DNA of 64,000 bases from Cohnella laeviribosi DSM 21336. GTDB lineage: Bacteria > Bacillota > Bacilli > Paenibacillales > Paenibacillaceae. This document shows, one piece after another, positions 1-64,000 of this stretch. Below the pieces are notes generated by a model. The model worked only from the letters and a program-made list of their open reading frames with translations, searched no databases and was not told the DNA's origin. The stretch covers positions 1-64,000 of the forward strand of contig NZ_KB899828.1 in assembly GCF_000378425.1 (NCBI RefSeq), in the 5' to 3' direction. Positions within the stretch are counted from its first letter, which is position 1. Each line of letters starts with the position of its first letter. A program made the position numbers and the translations under genes.

Positions 1-534
1 AACGTGCTGAACCGTCAGTTTAAACCGGATGCGCCTAACAAGGTTTGGGTCGCCGACATCACGTACATTGCCACGCGGCAGGGCTGGGTCTATTTAGCGA
101 GTCTCATGGATCTGTACTCCCGGAAGATCGTGGGTTGGGCGCTGGGCGAGCGAATGACGAAAGAGTTGGTGCTGGAGGCTTTTGACAAGGCATGCATGCG
201 TCAGAAGCCCCCAAAAGGCTTGATCCACCACTCTGATCGAGGGTCACAGTACGCTTCTACAGAATACCGGGCGAGACTGGAGTCGAACCAAATGATTGGC
301 AGCATGAGTCGCAAGGGCAACTGTTACGACAATGCCTGCATCGAATCTTTCCACAGCGTTCTCAAGAAAGAGCTCATTTACCAAACGAAATTTAACACTC
401 GTAAACAGGCGTATGATGCGATTTACGAGTACATTGAATTGGAGTATAACCGCATCCGTATCCATTCGTCGATCGGTTATCTGACTCCGTATTTGTACGA
501 AAAAAGGTACTATGAGCAACTCCAGGCAGGATAA
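1..534 (+). CDS. IS3-family transposase OrfB (5'-truncated by window)
   Basis: This is the DDE integrase-core part of an IS3 OrfB transposase, which carries out strand transfer of the element. The reading frame is open from base 1, so the gene starts upstream of the window. Counted from the GTG at 4, the catalytic triad is D18 (WVADITYI), D78 (HHSDRGSQY) and E114 (NACIESFHSVLK). The 35-residue spacing between the last two is the classic DD(35)E arrangement. The C-terminus (YNRIRIHSSIGYLTP) also matches the family. No frameshift is seen in the visible part, so this half may be functional. Confidence 0.93.
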   Translation, partial: NVLNRQFKPDAPNKVWVADITYIATRQGWVYLASLMDLYSRKIVGWALGERMTKELVLEAFDKACMRQKPPKGLIHHSDRGSQYASTEYRARLESNQMIGSMSRKGNCYDNACIESFHSVLKKELIYQTKFNTRKQAYDAIYEYIELEYNRIRIHSSIGYLTPYLYEKRYYEQLQAG

Positions 535-55424: not shown

Positions 55425-56282
55425 CTACTTCATCCCGGTAAGCGCGATGCCTTGAAGAATCCGTTTTTGAAACACCAGAAAAACAAGGATGAGCGGGATG
55501 ACGGACACGGTCGCTCCGGCCATGATCTGAATCCAGCCGCTGTTGTCCTTCAGCTCGCTCGAGAAATACACCATGCCGACCGGAAGCGTATACTTCGTCT
55601 CCGTCTGCAGGACGATAAACGGCCAGATGAACTGATTCCAGCCCGATATGAAGCTTAAAATCGCCAGCGTGACGATGGCGGGCTTCACGAGCGGAACCGC
55701 GATATGGGCAAAAATCCTCCACTCGCTCAAGCCGTCGATGCGGGCGGCGTCCAGCAGCTCCGAGGGCAGCGACTCCATAAATTGCTTCATCAGAAAGATC
55801 CCGAACGCCGTAATCAGCCCGGGCAGCAGCAACCCGGCGTACGTATCCGCCAGATGCAATTGCGACGCCAGCAAATACCACGGAATGATCAACATCTCCG
55901 TCGGAACCATCAAGGTGCTGATGATGAAGAGAAAAATGATTTTTTTGCCGGCAAACGAGAACTTGGCAAGCACGTATCCGACCGCCGTATCGAAAACCAA
56001 TACCGACGCCGTCGTAATCGCCGCCACGGCCGCGGTATTGGCGATCCAGCGGCCGAAAGGGGCTTTGGCAAAGATATCGGCGTAATTGCCGAGCGTCGCC
56101 GGCGAAGGAATGAGACCCGGGTCGAACAAGTGTTGAGGCAGCTTAAGCGAAGAGGTCACCATCCATACGAAAGGAAACAACGTGATCCACACTCCGGCCA
56201 ACAGCAGCGCGTACCGAATCGCTGCGGACATTCCCCGCCCGATGGAACCGCGCCGCGCCTGATCGGTTGCAACCCGACTCAA
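55425..56282 (-). CDS. Carbohydrate ABC transporter permease (MalG-like)
   Basis: A 285-residue CUT1 permease, last gene of its operon. N-terminal helix YALLLAGVWITLFPFVWMVT, PTEMLIIPWYLLASQL, the EAA loop ELLDAARIDGLSEWRIFAHI followed by AVPLVKPAIVTLAI, and about six membrane segments. The upstream partner permease ends 15 bp before. The start is the first in-frame ATG at 56282. Not closely similar to the permeases at 0.6-2.4 kb. Confidence 0.93.
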   Translation of the reverse strand: MSRVATDQARRGSIGRGMSAAIRYALLLAGVWITLFPFVWMVTSSLKLPQHLFDPGLIPSPATLGNYADIFAKAPFGRWIANTAAVAAITTASVLVFDTAVGYVLAKFSFAGKKIIFLFIISTLMVPTEMLIIPWYLLASQLHLADTYAGLLLPGLITAFGIFLMKQFMESLPSELLDAARIDGLSEWRIFAHIAVPLVKPAIVTLAILSFISGWNQFIWPFIVLQTETKYTLPVGMVYFSSELKDNSGWIQIMAGATVSVIPLILVFLVFQKRILQGIALTGMK

Positions 56283-56297
56283 CCGTTTCCCCTCCCG

Positions 56298-57233
56298 TCA
56301 ATATTCGACTTTCCTGTTCAGGACTTTGAGCTGCAGCAGGGTGAACGCCAGGATGAGGACAAACAGAACGACCGTGGCCGCCGATGCGCTGCCCATCTCG
56401 AAGCTTTTGAACGCCAGCTTGTAGATATGGAAGACGAGTGTTCTCGTCGAGTTCAGCGGACCGCCGTCCTGCGTCATGCTGACGATTTGGGCGAAAGCCT
56501 GCAGGTACGAGATGCCCGCGATAACGGCGGAAAACAAGATGACGGGGTTAAGCAGCGGGATCGTAATATGCCGGAACCTGCGCCAGGGACCTGCGCCGTC
56601 GATATGCGCGGCCTCGTAGTACACGTTGGGGATTCCCTGCAGCCCGGTGATGAAAATCAGCATCTGAAAGCCCACGCTCTGCCAAATCATCGAAAGGGCG
56701 ATGACATAAGGCGCCTGATGCGGGGATTGCAAAAAAAGCTGGGCGTCGAGGCCGAGTTTCAACAGCGCGGCGTTCACCCAGCCGTTCGGCATCAGCAGCC
56801 AGCGGAACACCCAACTGACGGCGACGATGCTGGTGACGTACGGAATGAAGTAAACCGTCCGGAAAAAGCCGCGAAACCGGGTTACGCTCTGCAGCAGCAG
56901 CGCGACGGCCAGTCCCGCCGCAAGCTGTCCGGGAACGCCGACGGCCACGAACAAAAACGTATTGCCGATCGATTTGCGAAACACTTCGTCCGCGAACAGG
57001 CCCTTGAAATTGGCCAAGCCGACATAAGGCTTGTCGGGCGACAATACATCCCATTCGCGGACGCTGATGTTAAACGAATACACGATCGGCACAAGCCGCG
57101 TGCCGATAAAATAAAGCAGCGGGAGCGCCAGCATAAGATAAATGAACAGGTAGCGCTGCGTCTTGTAGGTCAACCGGATCGACAGCAGCCTGCGCCCCGC
57201 CCGCGCGCTTTGCCGGATGGCATTCGCAATCAC
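56298..57233 (-). CDS. Carbohydrate ABC transporter permease (MalF-like)
   Basis: A 311-residue CUT1 permease. N-terminal helix YLFIYLMLALPLLYFIGTRL; family segments YSFNISVREWDVLSPDKPYV then GLANFKGLFADEVF; EAA loop NVYYEAAHIDGAGPWRRFRH then ITIPLLNPVILF. It begins 24 bp after the binding-protein gene and ends 15 bp before the MalG-like permease. Confidence 0.93.
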   Translation of the reverse strand: MIANAIRQSARAGRRLLSIRLTYKTQRYLFIYLMLALPLLYFIGTRLVPIVYSFNISVREWDVLSPDKPYVGLANFKGLFADEVFRKSIGNTFLFVAVGVPGQLAAGLAVALLLQSVTRFRGFFRTVYFIPYVTSIVAVSWVFRWLLMPNGWVNAALLKLGLDAQLFLQSPHQAPYVIALSMIWQSVGFQMLIFITGLQGIPNVYYEAAHIDGAGPWRRFRHITIPLLNPVILFSAVIAGISYLQAFAQIVSMTQDGGPLNSTRTLVFHIYKLAFKSFEMGSASAATVVLFVLILAFTLLQLKVLNRKVEY

Positions 57234-57257: not shown

Positions 57258-58619
57258 TTATTTTTTATCCGCCTTGGCCCAATACTCGTCATACAGCTTC
57301 TGCGTTTTGTCCACGAGGCTCCGGAACGCCTTCTCGACGGGCACATTTTTCAGCAGCACTTCATTCGTTGCGTCGACGAACAGCGTTCTTTCGTTGGCCT
57401 CGTCGATAAAGAAGTGCGCCTTGCTGTTTTCCAGTTGGGCGATAAACGGCCCCAGCTTCTCGTCATGCAAATATTTGTCCTGCGAAGCGACCGCTTTCTG
57501 CGCCGGAAGCTCGCCTACCTTCTCGACTCACTGCTCCTGAACCTCCTTGCTGGTCAAAAACTGCAGGAACTTGGTGGCGGCCTCGAGCTTGGCTCCGGAC
57601 ACGTTGGCCGGTATGGCGTTCGCCCAGAACGAGGACGGGGTCGACTTGCTCTTGTAGGAAGGCAGCGGAGCAATGCCGTAGTTCAGGTCCGGCGCATCCG
57701 TCTTGAGCGAGCCGAGGCGGAACGAGCCGTCGATGTTCATGGCCGCGTGGCCGGTTTTGAAGGCGGTCGCGTCGTCCGTGAAGACGCCCGTCGTGCCGAC
57801 TTTATGCTTGAGCGCAAAGTCGAGCAGGTATTGGAACGCCTCCAGTCCCGCCGGCGAATCGGCCCATAAAAGGCGGCGGCGGTCTTCGCTCAGATCTTCC
57901 CCGCCCGCCTGATGCAGCAGGCCGTCGCGGTACCAGTGGTGAAGCTGCGCGCCCGGCTCCCAGGCAAGGCCTTCGACGACGAATTGCCCGTTGGCATCCT
58001 TCTCCGTCAGTTTAATGGCCGCCTCCACAAGCTCCTCCCAGGTGGCCGGAGGCTCCGCGATATTCGCCTTGGCGAACAGATCCTTATTGTAGAACAGCGC
58101 CAACGTGCGAACGGCCGTCGGAATCGCCCAGTAGCGGCCGTCGATTTTGGCCGCGCTCACCAGCGGATAATAATCGCTCTCGATGCTCGCCGCCGGGAAA
58201 GCCGATTCGGGAAGCGGCTGCAGGAAGCCGGAAGCTACGTATTGGGGCAGCCATCCGTAGTACAGGTTGATCACGTCCGGACCCTTGCCGGCCGGAACGA
58301 GCGTGGCGACCTTTTCATTGTACTGGTCGTACGGGAAGTTCGTCTGTTTGACGACAATATTCGGATTTTGCTCCTGGAACTGCTTGATCAGCTCGTCAAT
58401 AAGGGCGACCTTGGCGGGATATTCATATTGCCAGTATTCGATCGTAACCTTTTCCTGCTCGGATTTCGGGGAGGACGAAGCGGACGATGACGAACCGGAG
58501 CCCGGCGAAGGGGAAGCCGGCCCGTCCGCCTGTTTCCCGCCGCCGCATGCGGCCAGCAGCAAAACGAACGCGAGCGCCAGAATGGATAAAGCTTTCGCAT
58601 TACGGGAATAGGTTGTCAT
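57258..58619 (-). pseudogene. Sugar-binding lipoprotein gene with an in-frame TGA
   Basis: Family-1 binding protein, lipoprotein signal ALSILALAFVLLLAAC, then a Ser/Gly/Pro linker and the mature domain (VTIEYWQYEYPAKVALIDEL). Translation from the ATG at 58619 stops at TGA (57528-57530) after LTSKEVQEQ, but the same frame continues for 90 codons with typical family sequence (VEKVGELPAQKAVASQ, then FIDEANERTLFVDATNEVLL) to 57258. In relatives the interrupted position is usually tryptophan, so TGG has probably become TGA. The truncated protein would lack the last ~20% of the C-lobe. The start overlaps the amidohydrolase stop by 4 bp. Confidence 0.85.
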
Positions 58620-59599
58620 AATCGGGCAGTCTCCTTTTGTTCGGATATGGGTTCGGATTTTGGTTCGGAAAAGGGAACGGACGGCTCCAGATTCAGCAGC
58701 TTTCGGGCGTTGTTGCCGAAGATGAGCTCCATTTCCGCATCGGAGAAGCGAAGATCGCGCGCCACGCGCGTCTGTTCCTGAAGATAGCGGTAATTGTAGC
58801 CGCGGGGGAAGCCGAGCGAATCGGTGCCGAAGATGATCCGTTCCGGGCCGATCAGCTCGTACGTCTTGCGGAACAAGGTCTCCAGCGTCAGCTCGTACGG
58901 CATCCAGCGGATCCATTGGTTGGAGCCGGACGTATCGACGTACACGTTCGGACAGCTCCAGCACAAATGCAGCAGCTCCTGGAAATAACCGCAGCCGAAA
59001 TGCGGGATGATAAACGGAATGTCGGGATATTGGCGGGCCACGTTAAAGATGGAGAGCGGATTGATGTTCAGATGCCGGACAATCCCGCCGGCATGGCCCA
59101 GCAGGCCGAAATGGATCAGCACCGGCAGCTTCCGTTCCGCCGCAAATGTCCATACGGGCGTAAGCGACTTGTCGTCGAACGGAATTTGGGTCAGCGGTCC
59201 GAACAGCTTGTAGCCTTTGAGGCCCAGCTCGTCGACTGCGCGCTTTAACTCCTCCGCGGCATCGGGCCGTTCGATGGAGTGGGAGGCGAAGCCGGTAAAC
59301 CGGTCCGGCGCCTTGGCAATTTGCTCGGCCAGATCGTCGTTGGTCCAGCCGGTCAGAAAATTGAGCCCCCCGATGCCGTAGCGGTCCAGCTCGTCCTTCC
59401 ACCGGTCGATCAGCGGCCGGTTCGCCGCTTCGGGATCGGGCTCGGAGGTCCGGAAATCCCACGTCAGGCGCATCCGTTCGGACCGCTCGAGGCCGTACCG
59501 GACAATCTTTTCGTGCCTTTCGTGCGCGAACGGATAGTCGTAAGGCAGATGACCGTGAATATCGAACACTTTGAAACCGGCTCTAAACAAAGGTATCAC
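58616..59599 (-). CDS. Amidohydrolase family 2 (PF04909-type) protein
   Basis: A 327-residue TIM-barrel metal-dependent hydrolase. Metal-ligand motifs: FDIHGHLPY near the N-terminus, VLIHFGLLGHAGG, IIPHFGCGYFQELL and IIFGTDSLGFPRGY, then LIFGNNARKLLNLE. Relatives hydrolyse or decarboxylate small cyclic or aromatic carboxylates; the substrate here is unknown. The gene lies between a lyase-like gene (about 50 bp upstream) and the sugar-binding protein gene (4-bp overlap), so it probably processes the transported compound. Confidence 0.88.
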   Translation of the reverse strand: MIPLFRAGFKVFDIHGHLPYDYPFAHERHEKIVRYGLERSERMRLTWDFRTSEPDPEAANRPLIDRWKDELDRYGIGGLNFLTGWTNDDLAEQIAKAPDRFTGFASHSIERPDAAEELKRAVDELGLKGYKLFGPLTQIPFDDKSLTPVWTFAAERKLPVLIHFGLLGHAGGIVRHLNINPLSIFNVARQYPDIPFIIPHFGCGYFQELLHLCWSCPNVYVDTSGSNQWIRWMPYELTLETLFRKTYELIGPERIIFGTDSLGFPRGYNYRYLQEQTRVARDLRFSDAEMELIFGNNARKLLNLEPSVPFSEPKSEPISEQKETARL

Positions 59600-59647
59600 T
59601 CCTCCTGTCGGATGGTCCGATTTTGCCGCATCCCTCGGGCTCCCCTT

Positions 59648-61156
59648 CTAGGAGCGAAGCCATTCGGCCAGAATAAGGTCCAGCTCCTTCAGCTTGCGCT
59701 CAAGCGAGGCGCGCGTGCGCCGCATCCATTCGTACGCCTCTGCGTGCCTCTCAGCCTGCACCGACAAAGCACGGGCCACCTCCTGCGGATTCGGGCCGCC
59801 GGGAAGGCTGCGAACGGCGACAAAATGCCAGGGATCGAGCGCCTGTCCGAGCTCGTCGCCGCTTAGGCCCAGCGGCCGGCCAACGACCTTCAGCGCCGCC
59901 TCGTTCAGCATCTCGACCGTAAGCTCGCGCACGGTGAGCCCTGCGGCATCTGCTTTTTGAACGAGCGCCGCCACGACGGTGTGCGCGGTCCGAAACGTCA
60001 AGCCCTCCTTGCGCACCAGCGTATCGGCCAGCTCGGTCACGGTGGCGAAGCTGGCCTCCGCCCGCTTGCGCAGCACATCCCGGTTGATCTCCAGCGTTTC
60101 GATGATCCGCGCTAGCAGCCGGCAGACCGCCTCCAGCGTATGCAGGCTTCTCCAGGCGTAAGGCTGCAAGTCGTCCTCCGTGTCGACGATATCGCCGAAG
60201 GGCGTATTGTGGATCATCGTCAGCACCGTCGCGGCGTCGCCCGCGCAGCTGGACAGCAGGGAGCGCACATGCTCGACGGATACCGGATTGCGCTTCTGCG
60301 GCATGATCGAACTGATCTGGACGTACGGCGCCGCCACCCGCACGGCGGAAAACTCCTGCGTTCCCCACAGCAGCAGCTCCTGGGCGAACCGGCCCAGATT
60401 AAGGGCAGCCAGCGAAACGGCGGCAGCGATCTCTCCCACATAGTCCGCTCCGCTGACCGCGTCGTACGCGTTCGCAATCACCTCGTCGAAGCCGAGCAGC
60501 TCGGCCGTCCGCTCGCGGCTGATCGCGAAGCCGGACGTGGTCAGGGCAGCCGCGCCCAGACTGCTGCGGTTGCAGTTGGCATACGCGGCCCTAAGGCGCC
60601 TGATGTCGCGTCCGAGCGAATCGGACACGGCCGCGATATAGTGCGCGACCGTTGTCGGCTGCGCTTGCTGCGTATGTGTGTAGCCGATCATCAGCGTGTC
60701 CGTATGGGCGCGCGCCAAGCCGATCAGCCGCTCCTGAAGCGCGATCGCGGAATTCAAGGCGGCCAGCAGCTTGCCGCGCAGCACGAGCCGGTAAATGGCG
60801 ATGCCCATATCATTGCGGCTTCGGGCCAGATGCAGGTTGCCCGCCACTTCGCCCGCCAAGGCGAGCAGTTCATGCTCCACTTCAAAAAACAAATCCTCAA
60901 ACCGGCCGGTATAGCGGTTGGACCGCAGCTTCTCCGTATTCAGCTCCAGCAGCGCCCGGGCGATCGCTTGGGCATCCCGTTTGGCCACCAGGCCTTGCTC
61001 GTAAAGCATGATCAGGTGCGCCTTGTTGACGGCGATCATCGGGCCCAGCAGCTCTTTCTTGGCCTGATCGTAAGCCGGCTCGAGCACAACTTCGGCATAC
61101 GTTTTCCCAGGAAAGCGCGTCCCTTCCTCCGCTCCCCGCTCCTGTACGTCTTTCAC
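59648..61156 (-). CDS. Argininosuccinate lyase-like protein
   Basis: A 502-residue member of the fumarase/aspartase/argininosuccinate lyase superfamily, which eliminates fumarate or similar acids. The signature ISSIMPQKRNPVSVEHVRS carries the catalytic serine loop; GNLHLARSRNDMGIAIYRLV and IGYTHTQQAQPTTVAHYIAA match the ArgH substrate and proton-donor regions. The protein is about 40 residues longer than ordinary ArgH, and argG is not nearby. Its operon with an amidohydrolase and sugar importer suggests a catabolic paralogue. AGGAG lies 8 bases before the GTG at 61156. Confidence 0.82.
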   Translation of the reverse strand: MKDVQERGAEEGTRFPGKTYAEVVLEPAYDQAKKELLGPMIAVNKAHLIMLYEQGLVAKRDAQAIARALLELNTEKLRSNRYTGRFEDLFFEVEHELLALAGEVAGNLHLARSRNDMGIAIYRLVLRGKLLAALNSAIALQERLIGLARAHTDTLMIGYTHTQQAQPTTVAHYIAAVSDSLGRDIRRLRAAYANCNRSSLGAAALTTSGFAISRERTAELLGFDEVIANAYDAVSGADYVGEIAAAVSLAALNLGRFAQELLLWGTQEFSAVRVAAPYVQISSIMPQKRNPVSVEHVRSLLSSCAGDAATVLTMIHNTPFGDIVDTEDDLQPYAWRSLHTLEAVCRLLARIIETLEINRDVLRKRAEASFATVTELADTLVRKEGLTFRTAHTVVAALVQKADAAGLTVRELTVEMLNEAALKVVGRPLGLSGDELGQALDPWHFVAVRSLPGGPNPQEVARALSVQAERHAEAYEWMRRTRASLERKLKELDLILAEWLRS

Positions 61157-61189
61157 CTTTTTCACTCCTGTCCGGCCGGGCTTATCTAC

Positions 61190-61235
61190 CTCCAAAAAAA
61201 CAAAAGAGACCAAGCCCTAACGGGCATTCGGTCTC
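61190..61235 (-). terminator. Intrinsic terminator in the leader of the lyase-like gene
   Basis: Minus-strand GAGACC(61230-61235)/GGTCTC(61206-61211) with inner GCCC/GGGC, followed by TTTTGTTTTTTT. It lies between the promoter at 61348-61376 and the gene start at 61156, so read-through must be allowed or regulated. Confidence 0.75.
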
Positions 61236-61341
61236 CAGTTGTCCGGTAGATATGATAGGGGCCGTATTTTTTCCAAAGAAACCTGCAGCCTAAGCCGCAA
61301 GCCGATCAAATCCGATAATACAAACTGGTTATGTTGTTATT
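61206..61341 (-). ncRNA. Structured 5' leader, candidate attenuator or riboswitch
   Basis: The predicted transcript starts near 61341. The leader can form a closing helix CCAGTTTG (61321-61328) with CAACTGG (61235-61241), which adjoins the terminator's 5' arm, and an 8-bp hairpin CTTGCGGC-UUAG-GCTGCAGG (61282-61301). GGTTTC upstream could pair with GAGACC to form an antiterminator. The pattern suits a switch, but I could not match it to a known riboswitch or T-box. Confidence 0.45.
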
Positions 61342-61347
61342 TACTGG

Positions 61348-61376
61348 ATTTTAACACCGCTTCCAAGGAGCGTCAA
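61348..61376 (-). promoter_or_regulatory. Sigma-A promoter with cre-like site, lyase-like operon
   Basis: Minus-strand TTGACG (61371-61376), 17-bp spacer, TAAAAT (61348-61353). The spacer contains TGGAAGCGGTGTTA (61352-61365), one or two mismatches from a cre consensus and 12 of 14 identical to the cre-like site at 10323-10336. CcpA binding here would block RNA polymerase. Confidence 0.6.
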
Positions 61377-61433
61377 TGCATTTCCTAATAGATCATTCCT
61401 ATATTTCGATAAAAAATCGTTTGCGCCGGCCGT

Positions 61434-62285
61434 TCACCGGATTTTCCGGTAAATCCGGTATTCCTCGTTCCACGTCTCGTAGCAGTCGGCGTATCGGGTA
61501 AAGGCGATCGACTCCTTGCCGCCCAGAATCAGAAAGCCGCCCTTCGCCAAACTTTCGAACAACAGGCCGTGCACGCGGTCGCGAAGCTCCGAATTAAAGT
61601 AAATCAGGACATTGCGGCAAAAAATGACGTGAAACTCGTTAAACGACTGGTCCGTGACCAGATTGTGCTCCGCGAATACGATCCGTTCGTGCAAGCGGCG
61701 TTTCATCAGCACCAGATCGTGCTCTCTCTCGCAGTAGTCGGAAAAATCCGACTTGCCGCCGGCCAGCTCGTAATTTCTTGCGTACTGGCCGCATCTGTCG
61801 GCGGGGATGATGCGCTCCCGCGCCCGCCGCAGCGCGCTGCGGCTGATGTCCGTCGCGTAGAGGCGGGATTTGGCCAAAATCCCCTCTTCCTCGAACAAAA
61901 TGGCGGTCGAGTACGCCTCCTCGCCGGAAGCGCAGCCGGCGTGCCAGACGCGCACGAAGGGAAGGCGGCTTAAGATCGGCGCGATCCGCTCCCGGAGGAA
62001 AAGGAACAAGCCCGGGTCCCGGAACATCTCCGTCGCCGGGATGACCAAGTCGGACAGCAGCCGTTCGAACGAATCCCGGTCGTGCAGCACTTTTTCCTGC
62101 AGCGCCGATATCGTGCCCAGACGCTCCAGGTTAATCCGGTGCCAAATGCGGCGGCGCAGCGACGGGAAGGCATAGCGGCGAAAATCGTATCCGTACCTGC
62201 GGTAAACCCCTTCCAGCAGCAGCTCGATTTCGAGTTTTTCCAGCTGTTCGTCGGCGCCGGGCAATTGCTTCAGTTCGGCGTTCAT
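61434..62285 (-). CDS. CheR-type protein-glutamate methyltransferase
   Basis: A 283-residue SAM-dependent methyltransferase. The N-terminal CheR helical domain is followed by the SAM-binding motif RVWHAGCASGEEAYSTAILF and the motif LYATDISRSALRRARER, then FHVIFCRNVLIYFNSELRDR, the strongly conserved CheR signature. RBS AAAGGTG lies before the ATG at 62285, whose ATGA overlaps the kinase stop. CheR beside hybrid kinases usually belongs to stand-alone signalling modules rather than flagellar chemotaxis; no che genes are present here. Confidence 0.92.
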   Translation of the reverse strand: MNAELKQLPGADEQLEKLEIELLLEGVYRRYGYDFRRYAFPSLRRRIWHRINLERLGTISALQEKVLHDRDSFERLLSDLVIPATEMFRDPGLFLFLRERIAPILSRLPFVRVWHAGCASGEEAYSTAILFEEEGILAKSRLYATDISRSALRRARERIIPADRCGQYARNYELAGGKSDFSDYCEREHDLVLMKRRLHERIVFAEHNLVTDQSFNEFHVIFCRNVLIYFNSELRDRVHGLLFESLAKGGFLILGGKESIAFTRYADCYETWNEEYRIYRKIR

Positions 62286-64000
62286 CGGGACAACCACACC
62301 TTTAGCAGCGACAGCAGCCGATTGACCTGTACCGGCTTGGCCATGTAGTCGGAAGCGCCCGCCTGCAGGCATTTGTCCCTGTCGTCCTTCATCGCCTTGG
62401 CGGTAAGCGCGATGATCGGAAGGCCGCTCCATTTCGGATGCCTGCGGATGCGCGCTATCGCTTCGTAGCCGTCCATCTCCGGCATCATGATATCCATGAG
62501 CACGAGATCGACCTCCTCGGCCTGATCCAGAATGGCCAGCGCCTCCCGGCCGTTCTCCGCCGACAGCACGCGCAGCCGATGATGCTCGAGCAAGCTCGTC
62601 AGCGAGAAGACGTTGCGCTCGTCGTCGTCGACGAGGAGCACGGTCTTGCCGGCCAGAACCGAGTCGCCCTGGCGCTCTTCATCGCCAGCCGGCCCGGTAT
62701 CTGCCGGCTCCGCACGTGCCGGCTCCGCACCTGCCGACTCCGCCGACGTGCCGTCGGCAAGCGGAGCCGTCCCGGCTTCCGTTGCCGCTTGCGCTTCCGG
62801 CGCCGTTTCGGCCTCGGGTGCCGCTTGCGGCAGCGGGATCGAAGACTCGGCGCGTTCCTCCGCGGCTTCGGTACGATCCGGCGGGCCGTTTTCCGCTCCG
62901 CCGGCTGTGGAGGAGTCCGATTCCGGCAAGAATGCCGCGCTCCCCGCCTCTTTCCAGTCGGGGCACCGCTCCGGCAGGTACAGCGTAAAGGTGCTGCCGC
63001 GCCCCACCTCGCTCTCTAGCTCGATGAAGCCCCCGAGCAGGGCGGCGAGCTCCTTGCTGATGGTCAGGCCCAGTCCGGTGCCGCCGAACTTGCGGCTGGT
63101 CGTGCCGTCCGCCTGGCGGAACGCCTCGAAGATCACCTCGCGCTTGTCGGGCGCAATGCCGATCCCGGTATCCTCCACCGCGAACGCGATATAAGGCTCG
63201 GCTTCCCGTCCGCCCAGGTTCTCCCGCTCCGCCTCGGTGCATCGGCGGATATGCAGCTTGATGGAGCCTTCGAGGGTAAATTTGAGCGCGTTGGACAGCA
63301 GGTTGCGCAAAATCTGCTTCAGCCGGTGCCCGTCCGTAAGCAGCACCGGAGGCACGTTCTCTTCCATGCGTATGGAGAACTCGAGCCCCTTCTCCGCCGC
63401 GATCGACGCGTACGTGTCCTCCAGCGTCGCCGTAATGTCCTCGATCAGCGTCGGCTCCGGATGGATGTCCATTTTGCCGGAGTCGATTTTGGCCAAATCG
63501 AGAATTTCATCGATCATCTTCAGCAGGTCGTTGCCCGAGGATTGGATCGTCCGCACGAAGCTGAGCTGCTTCTCGGTCAAGTTCCCTTCGCTGTTGTCCT
63601 CCAAAAACTGCGCCAGAATAATCATGCTGTTCAGCGGCGTCCGCAGCTCATGCGACATGTTGGCGAGAAATTCGGATTTGTACTGGGACGCAAGGGCAAG
63701 CTGTCTCGCCTGGCGCTCCAGCTCCGCGTTCGCTTTGGCGACTTCGCGGCTTTTGCGCTCGGTTTGCCGGTTTTGCTCCTCCAACTCCAGCGTTTTGACC
63801 GTCAGTTCCTGGCTCGTATGCTCCAGCTCCCGCTGCTGCCGCTGCAGGCGCTCCTCGGAGAGCTTCAACTGCTCCCTCTGTCCCTCGAGCTGCTCGTTCG
63901 TCTGCCGGAGCTCTTCCTGCCGGGAACGCAGTTCCTCCGACTGCACCTGAAGCTCCTCCGCCATCGCCTGCGTTTCGCGCAGCAGCTCTTCGACCCGCTG
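62282..64000 (-). CDS. Hybrid histidine kinase-response regulator (N-terminus outside window)
   Basis: C-terminal ~570 residues of a larger hybrid kinase; the frame is open through base 64000. Order: long coiled coil rich in Glu/Gln/Leu (QSEELRSRQEELRQTNEQLE), HisKA with phospho-acceptor His in FLANMSHELRTPLNS, HATPase_c (NLLSNALKF, VEDTGIGIAP, FGGTGLGLTIS), an Ala/Glu/Pro-rich linker of about 95 residues, and a receiver with phospho-acceptor Asp in DLVLMDIMMPEMDGYEAI. The input domain is off the window. It overlaps the CheR gene by 4 bp. A one-component phosphorelay controlling the CheR protein or another partner is likely. Confidence 0.93.
   Translation of the reverse strand, partial: QRVEELLRETQAMAEELQVQSEELRSRQEELRQTNEQLEGQREQLKLSEERLQRQQRELEHTSQELTVKTLELEEQNRQTERKSREVAKANAELERQARQLALASQYKSEFLANMSHELRTPLNSMIILAQFLEDNSEGNLTEKQLSFVRTIQSSGNDLLKMIDEILDLAKIDSGKMDIHPEPTLIEDITATLEDTYASIAAEKGLEFSIRMEENVPPVLLTDGHRLKQILRNLLSNALKFTLEGSIKLHIRRCTEAERENLGGREAEPYIAFAVEDTGIGIAPDKREVIFEAFRQADGTTSRKFGGTGLGLTISKELAALLGGFIELESEVGRGSTFTLYLPERCPDWKEAGSAAFLPESDSSTAGGAENGPPDRTEAAEERAESSIPLPQAAPEAETAPEAQAATEAGTAPLADGTSAESAGAEPARAEPADTGPAGDEERQGDSVLAGKTVLLVDDDERNVFSLTSLLEHHRLRVLSAENGREALAILDQAEEVDLVLMDIMMPEMDGYEAIARIRRHPKWSGLPIIALTAKAMKDDRDKCLQAGASDYMAKPVQVNRLLSLLKVWLSR

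Follow-up and report, generated by a model that had tools for sequence, protein, structure and literature searches.

The leader of an ArgH-like lyase operon in Cohnella laeviribosi DSM 21336 quite probably belongs to a family of antitermination elements, in which a short conserved hairpin, held by a trans-acting factor, would control a sulfur-scavenging regulon. This reading comes from comparing the leader with related sequences across many genomes, and it is the content of the genes behind the element that points to sulfur. The window referred to below is the whole stretch of DNA analysed (64,000 nucleotides, positions 1 to 64,000 of contig NZ_KB899828.1).

The lyase leader and its terminator

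On the minus strand of the window, the leader precedes the lyase gene, an amidohydrolase gene, a gene for an ABC solute-binding protein, and two permease genes, in that order:

61395 to 61402, minus strand: ATAGGAAT box, upstream of the -35
61348 to 61376, minus strand: promoter TTGACG-17-TAAAAT (TTGACG at 61376-61371, TAAAAT at 61353-61348, TG before the -10)
61230 to 61252, minus strand: conserved hairpin, the candidate antiterminator (bulged A at 61247, tetraloop at 61242-61239)
61194 to 61236, minus strand: intrinsic terminator, a GGAGACCGA..TTGGTCTCT stem and then TTTTGTTTTTTT, with a 9-bp outer stem and a U-rich tail
59648 to 61156, minus strand: ArgH-like lyase gene (GTG start at 61156-61154, picked by inspection, with GGAG upstream)
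58616 to 59599, minus strand: amidohydrolase gene (Amidohydro_2), next after the lyase
57528 to 58964, minus strand: ABC solute-binding protein gene (coordinates of the whole open frame; translation probably begins further inside it)
55425 to 57233, minus strand: two ABC permease genes (56298-57233 and 55425-56282)

The lyase protein matches Pfam Lyase_1 and ASL_C2, and scores above cut-off for TIGR00838 (argH). Upstream of the leader and on the same strand lie a CheR methyltransferase gene (61434-62432) and a gene for a histidine kinase/response regulator hybrid (62282-64000). The leader itself spans about 185 nt between the promoter and the lyase GTG, taking the start site to be the one expected from the promoter.

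A first-pass annotation of this DNA had called a strong promoter and, just ahead of the lyase gene, an intrinsic terminator, and both hold up. The promoter is near consensus (10 of 12 matches) and scores highest among the 5 promoter-like sites in 58000-64000; the terminator at 61236-61194 was found by a separate stem search and again within the predicted fold of the leader, which is more stable than 200 of 200 shuffles (z -3.55). A simple terminator scan, which listed 6 sites compared with 6.1 in shuffles, missed the lyase-leader terminator, presumably because the loop limit there was 8 nt. The same annotation had seen an attenuator-type leader outside known riboswitch families, as both the terminator layout and Rfam (15) bear out: the whole window has no match at gathering score; the interval 61000-61450 has four weak matches only at E<=10, all to eukaryotic families; and 20 further loci have four weak matches at E<=1, all away from the elements. 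Nor is the leader a piece of repeated DNA, its own genome holding no second copy beyond short chance matches.

Two further structures had been proposed, a closing helix (61251-61245 with 61190-61184) and an 8-bp hairpin (about 61303-61280). Both exist in the window, but six nucleotides of the helix recur exactly at only one of the 143 sites considered below, namely the window itself, and the stretch holding the 8-bp hairpin is missing from the five close leaders that we aligned. Homologous leaders do share a conserved structure, as that annotation had asked to be checked, but a different one, a hairpin of about 23 nt. The original observation is thus partly confirmed, and its interpretation partly supported.

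A 13-codon frame on the minus strand of the window (61228-61187) begins inside the terminator with GGAG before it, and is not conserved in kind at other sites. Such a frame is what ribosome-mediated attenuation through a leader peptide could use; we give that explanation almost no credence, because a Shine-Dalgarno-like start with a frame running into the hairpin occurs at 9 of the 143 sites, compared with 8.15 expected from shuffles, which is chance level.

The conserved hairpin and its competition with the terminator

Comparison of 80 of the 161 loci with lyase relatives revealed in many leaders a common short block, ACCRG-NNNN-CYGGAGA, leading into a terminator that varies from site to site. 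When the window and five close leaders are aligned, the promoter, a GGAAT-like box, the hairpin block, and the terminator all fall into register, and the window has an extra stretch. Across 143 distinct class A elements (hairpin plus matched terminator), the consensus of about 23 nt is RUYK-A-CCRG-AYMA-CYGG-AGAY, in which one A is bulged and the loop is usually a tetraloop; the letters CCRG, CYGG, and AGAY and the four-base loop length were imposed by the class A pattern, which left room for covariation only in the third stem pair and the flanks. In the copies examined, the loop has four or five bases on a single hairpin. The window copy departs from the consensus in that the outermost pairs 61252:61230 and 61251:61231 are not formed, and its third upper-stem pair is G-U; model R1 matches it at 61227-61255 (27.9 bits, E 1.4e-5 over 0.97 Mb), a match by construction, since the window copy entered the 100 sequences behind the model through locus L001.

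Pairing where the pattern left it free argues for a real helix, with the proviso that relatedness of the sequences inflates all of these counts. Specifically, i) the third upper-stem pair is G-C in 73 elements, A-U in 62, G-U in 8, and A-C in 0, although the pattern permitted A-C, so that 143 are paired as against a shuffled mean of 111; ii) counting the bulged A as position 0, the helix continues below it, with -2:14 paired in 139 of 143 and -3:15 in 125 of 143; iii) further down, the lower stem is imperfect, -4:16 pairing in 98 of 143 (shuffled 83) and -5:17 in 70 of 143 (shuffled 51); iv) of the other registers tried, -6:17 alone is enriched, and mildly (66 versus 52, p 0.008); and v) position -1 faces 13 as G.A in 88 elements and as U-A in 40. 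Among 100 divergent elements, the named structure beats 500 of 500 shuffles in paired cells, in cells changed on both sides, and in covariation score; on two of the five measures it does not stand out, the number of double-change pairs being reached by 233 of 500 shuffles and that of further pair types by 491 of 500. Against slid registers the named structure is again top for covariation score, and further pair types are higher in the three 3'-ward slides. The 39 R1 matches in the window and the lyase loci (35 distinct rows) follow the same pairing trend, to be taken with care because these rows were fitted to the model.

One prediction was fixed beforehand: if -2 pairs with 14, elements with A at position 14 should have U at -2. 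A search with a pattern permitting C or U at -2 returned 17 sites, spread over 17 of 381 genomes, as against none for the control, and all 17 have U, compared with 34% in the 143 elements; one host copy with this combination (L283) was already known before the search. At these sites -4:16 is a G-C pair in 11 cases and an A-U pair in 6, and -5:17 and -3:15 are each paired in 16. A MetN-motif protein follows in 9, a closely similar ABC ATPase in 4, and no called gene within the stretch examined in 4; because 13 of the 17 thus precede MetN-like genes, the sites are in large part one orthologous leader rather than independent events.

The hairpin 3' arm CYGGAGAY contains the terminator 5' arm GGAGAY, as in the window, where the terminator 5' arm is the hairpin 3' arm; the two structures are therefore mutually exclusive. 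In a second class of elements, found at several lyase loci and elsewhere, nearly all of the 3' half of the hairpin lies within the terminator stem. By energy calculation the terminator beats the hairpin in 143 of 143 elements (mean -20.0 versus -6.9 kcal/mol), and when each site is folded in full, the prediction comes out terminated for 140, open for 2, and antiterminated for 1. Termination is thus the predicted default state, and with the terminator the more stable partner, read-through would need something that holds the hairpin during its synthesis.

Distribution, upstream signals, and neighboring genes

Of 381 genomes from the host's family, 108 carry class A elements, with zero matches to the reversed-pattern control among the rows listed for those genomes; a loose pattern is found in 117 of 148 family genomes, a figure that includes chance matches, as the control had some too. 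Further afield, 10 of 249 Bacilli genomes (22 of them from the same family) have a match, 7 of the 10 outside the family and the control at zero, and a slightly tighter pattern matches in 4 of 348 genomes drawn from the phylum. Of these 348, 333 lie outside the class and supply one of the 4 matches; the control had one chance match. One genus has no class A element among the 74 genomes listed, and related genera carry several, which suggests that the system was lost or replaced there. Contrasts occur inside a genus as well: genome G289 is element-rich, and for its congeners G288 and G290-G295 no class A match was found.

Within the 80 lyase loci, model R1 at E<=1 places an element upstream of the lyase in only 21 and directly after the lyase gene, between genes, in 10. 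The copies right after the lyase stop are those at L032:6501-6529, L033:6498-6526, L035:6501-6529, L043:6499-6527, L071:6463-6491, and five other loci. Such intergenic copies suggest that each terminator of an operon could be separately controlled. Some single leaders hold tandem copies, each with its own terminator (L078:4761 and 4845; L083:4703 and 4796; two copies at L230).

Upstream of the hairpin, only a promoter and a GGAAT box are enriched. A sequence TTGACN-16..18-TANNNT lies within 160 nt upstream of 112 of the 143 elements (shuffled mean 1.6), and ATNGGAAT occurs near the promoter in the upstream regions of 44 of the 143 (shuffled mean 2.8). The GGAAT-type box may resemble CymR-type operators, and its position near the promoter suggests a possible extra layer of repression by a CymR-like repressor. 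These frequencies, far above shuffles, would also suit a system regulated at the promoter only, by a CymR-like repressor at the box, with a constitutive terminator behind it; we regard this as improbable, because a fixed terminator has no need of a conserved, covarying, competing hairpin, and because copies lie between genes. Similarly low is the probability that we assign to a small-molecule riboswitch, in which the leader RNA would bind a sulfur metabolite and toggle between hairpin and terminator. It would share the attenuator layout, and SAM riboswitches (named in a passage of PMC5670726) serve sulfur genes in Bacilli; set against this are a conserved unit of about 23 nt, short leaders (a median of 46 nt separates the -10 from the bulged A in the 112 of 143 sites with a recognized promoter), upstream enrichment limited to the promoter and GGAAT box, copies between genes, and no Rfam match overlapping the element in the window or at the 20 further loci.

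To ask what the antitermination elements precede, we surveyed 30 class A loci and 80 chosen regions from the matches listed, giving 109 sites, at 98 of which a first gene was called. Each cluster takes its label from a single representative, and those for MetN-like and SsuA-like score below NCBIfam cut-offs. The 98 first genes, by cluster, are:

MetN-like, 14
UgpA/MalF-like permease, 10
NtaA/DmoA monooxygenase, 9
SsuA-like, 6
CocE/NonD, 6
MetY, 5
LysR, 5
Frd/Apr-like flavoprotein, 5
EmrB-like, 4
lyase, amidohydrolase, NlpA, GntR, HpaB, nitroreductase, LacI, and SBP_bac_3, two each
single cases, 18, including a sulfatase, a sulfatase-modifying enzyme, a rhodanese, and TauD

By our reading, locus L161 is a MetY locus called in the wrong frame, and the product at L169, which matches Pfam SBP_bac_11, is a sulfate-type binding protein. 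Families with a sulfur role account for about 42 of the 98 first genes (MetN-like, NtaA/DmoA, MetY together with L161, SsuA-like, NlpA, and five single cases); the remaining first genes, more than half, are without a clear sulfur role, being general or of no known function. Sugars, fumarate, arginine, and nucleotides, which the first-pass annotation had put forward as ligands, sit poorly with this list, which is largely one of sulfur scavenging.

Outside the family, the genes behind the matches are metY (twice), an SsuA-like gene, an SsuE-like reductase gene with SsuA, a MetQ-like gene, a GNAT gene accompanied by one for a cystine-type binding protein, and an OsmC-like gene, the names being our reading of the translations. 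At one match (L258) no gene is called downstream, and it looks like chance. The match outside the class (L305:1643-2521, genome G924) precedes a nitrogenase-reductase-like gene, which might encode a methylthio-alkane reductase, i.e. an enzyme of sulfur salvage.

The host genome holds at least 9 terminator-linked copies by model and pattern searches combined: besides the window, they lie before metY; a CocE-type hydrolase gene and a divergent monooxygenase gene; a solute-binding protein gene and a divergent OsmC-like gene; a LysR gene; a MetN-like gene; and an SsuD-like monooxygenase gene. Others among the 24 host model matches at E<=10 (e.g. those on C6, C18, C4, and C9) lie within coding sequence and were taken as chance. 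An element before a LysR-type regulator gene is seen in the host (L282, G000 C52:10102) and in other genomes (a cluster of five); this regulator may be a second tier of the regulon.

In view of these host copies, the lyase operon of the window is best read as a sulfur-acquisition operon. Its lyase might act on a thiol carrying a succinate adduct, which is no more than conjecture. S-(2-succino) lyases are described from other bacteria in a passage of PMC9706529, and that the window lyase is such an enzyme is a possible lead.

A candidate antitermination mechanism and its relation to known systems

In the scheme that we favor, the terminator would form when sulfur is sufficient, and transcription would end ahead of the gene. 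Under sulfur shortage, an RNA-binding factor acting in trans would hold the emerging hairpin, the terminator would be blocked, and polymerase would read on. The factor would most likely be a putative new protein. We favor a protein over an aptamer because the unit is short and free-standing, the leaders are short, and copies lie between genes. Domain searches of the host genome (99.99% complete) found no match to ANTAR (PF03861), CAT_RBD (PF03123), or HutP (PF09021). Across the genomes searched, ANTAR is encoded by 12 of 21 that bear elements and by 13 of 17 others; for CAT_RBD these figures are 8 of 21 and 16 of 17, and for HutP 4 of 12 and 0 of 8. With no match to any of the three in the host, the factor should therefore be of another class or new. 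K-turn, PyrR, and CsrA readings appear to fit poorly, and a trans-acting small RNA pairing with the element is made unlikely by the matched changes in both stem arms.

We wish to stress that a stronger proposal stands at about even odds in our estimation: that the hairpin is bound by antiterminator proteins that sense sulfur and form a so far undescribed RNA-binding family outside CAT_RBD, ANTAR, and HutP. These proteins would control a global sulfur-scavenging regulon across Paenibacillus-like Bacilli terminator by terminator, intergenic ones included. Sulfur control in Bacilli is described in terms of CymR and of SAM and T-box leaders; a regulon-wide antitermination hairpin, if real, would be a new layer of that control, and would predict which transporters and enzymes of no known role, including those of the lyase operon, serve sulfur acquisition. 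A short and defined RNA hairpin is also a bait with which to seek a new RNA-binding regulator.

In the open-licence literature we found no earlier description of the element, the sole hint being one sentence in Naville and Gautheret 2010 (PMC2965389) on a bacilli attenuator common to a sulfonate ABC operon and a gene of no known function. Their attenuator may be the same element.

Several known systems resemble the proposed one in part. The RAT hairpins of BglG, LicT, and SacT share sequence with a terminator and expose unpaired bases on their side, so that an antiterminator hairpin overlapping terminator sequence is common to both; RAT elements are longer, have two internal loops, and serve sugar genes, whereas the present hairpin is shorter and goes with sulfur-type genes. 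The S-box (SAM-I) riboswitch likewise brings methionine and sulfur genes of Bacilli under terminator control, but has a large aptamer, and the present element has no Rfam match. EutV and related ANTAR proteins, as described in a passage of PMC8934654, bind an RNA hairpin that overlaps the stem of the terminator and stops its formation, and several terminators within one operon are controlled one by one. ANTAR targets differ in being dual hexaloops with A1 and G4, whereas here there is a single hairpin with a bulged A and mostly an AYMA tetraloop. In the LoaP/dfn system, too, a small RNA hairpin recruits an antiterminator, according to a passage of PMC12691694. That hairpin has a UNCG loop, lies apart from the terminator, and serves antibiotic operons. 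The hairpin described here overlaps the terminator, and its loops are mostly AYMA, with UNCG (as UCCG) in 2 of the 138 sites with listed loops.
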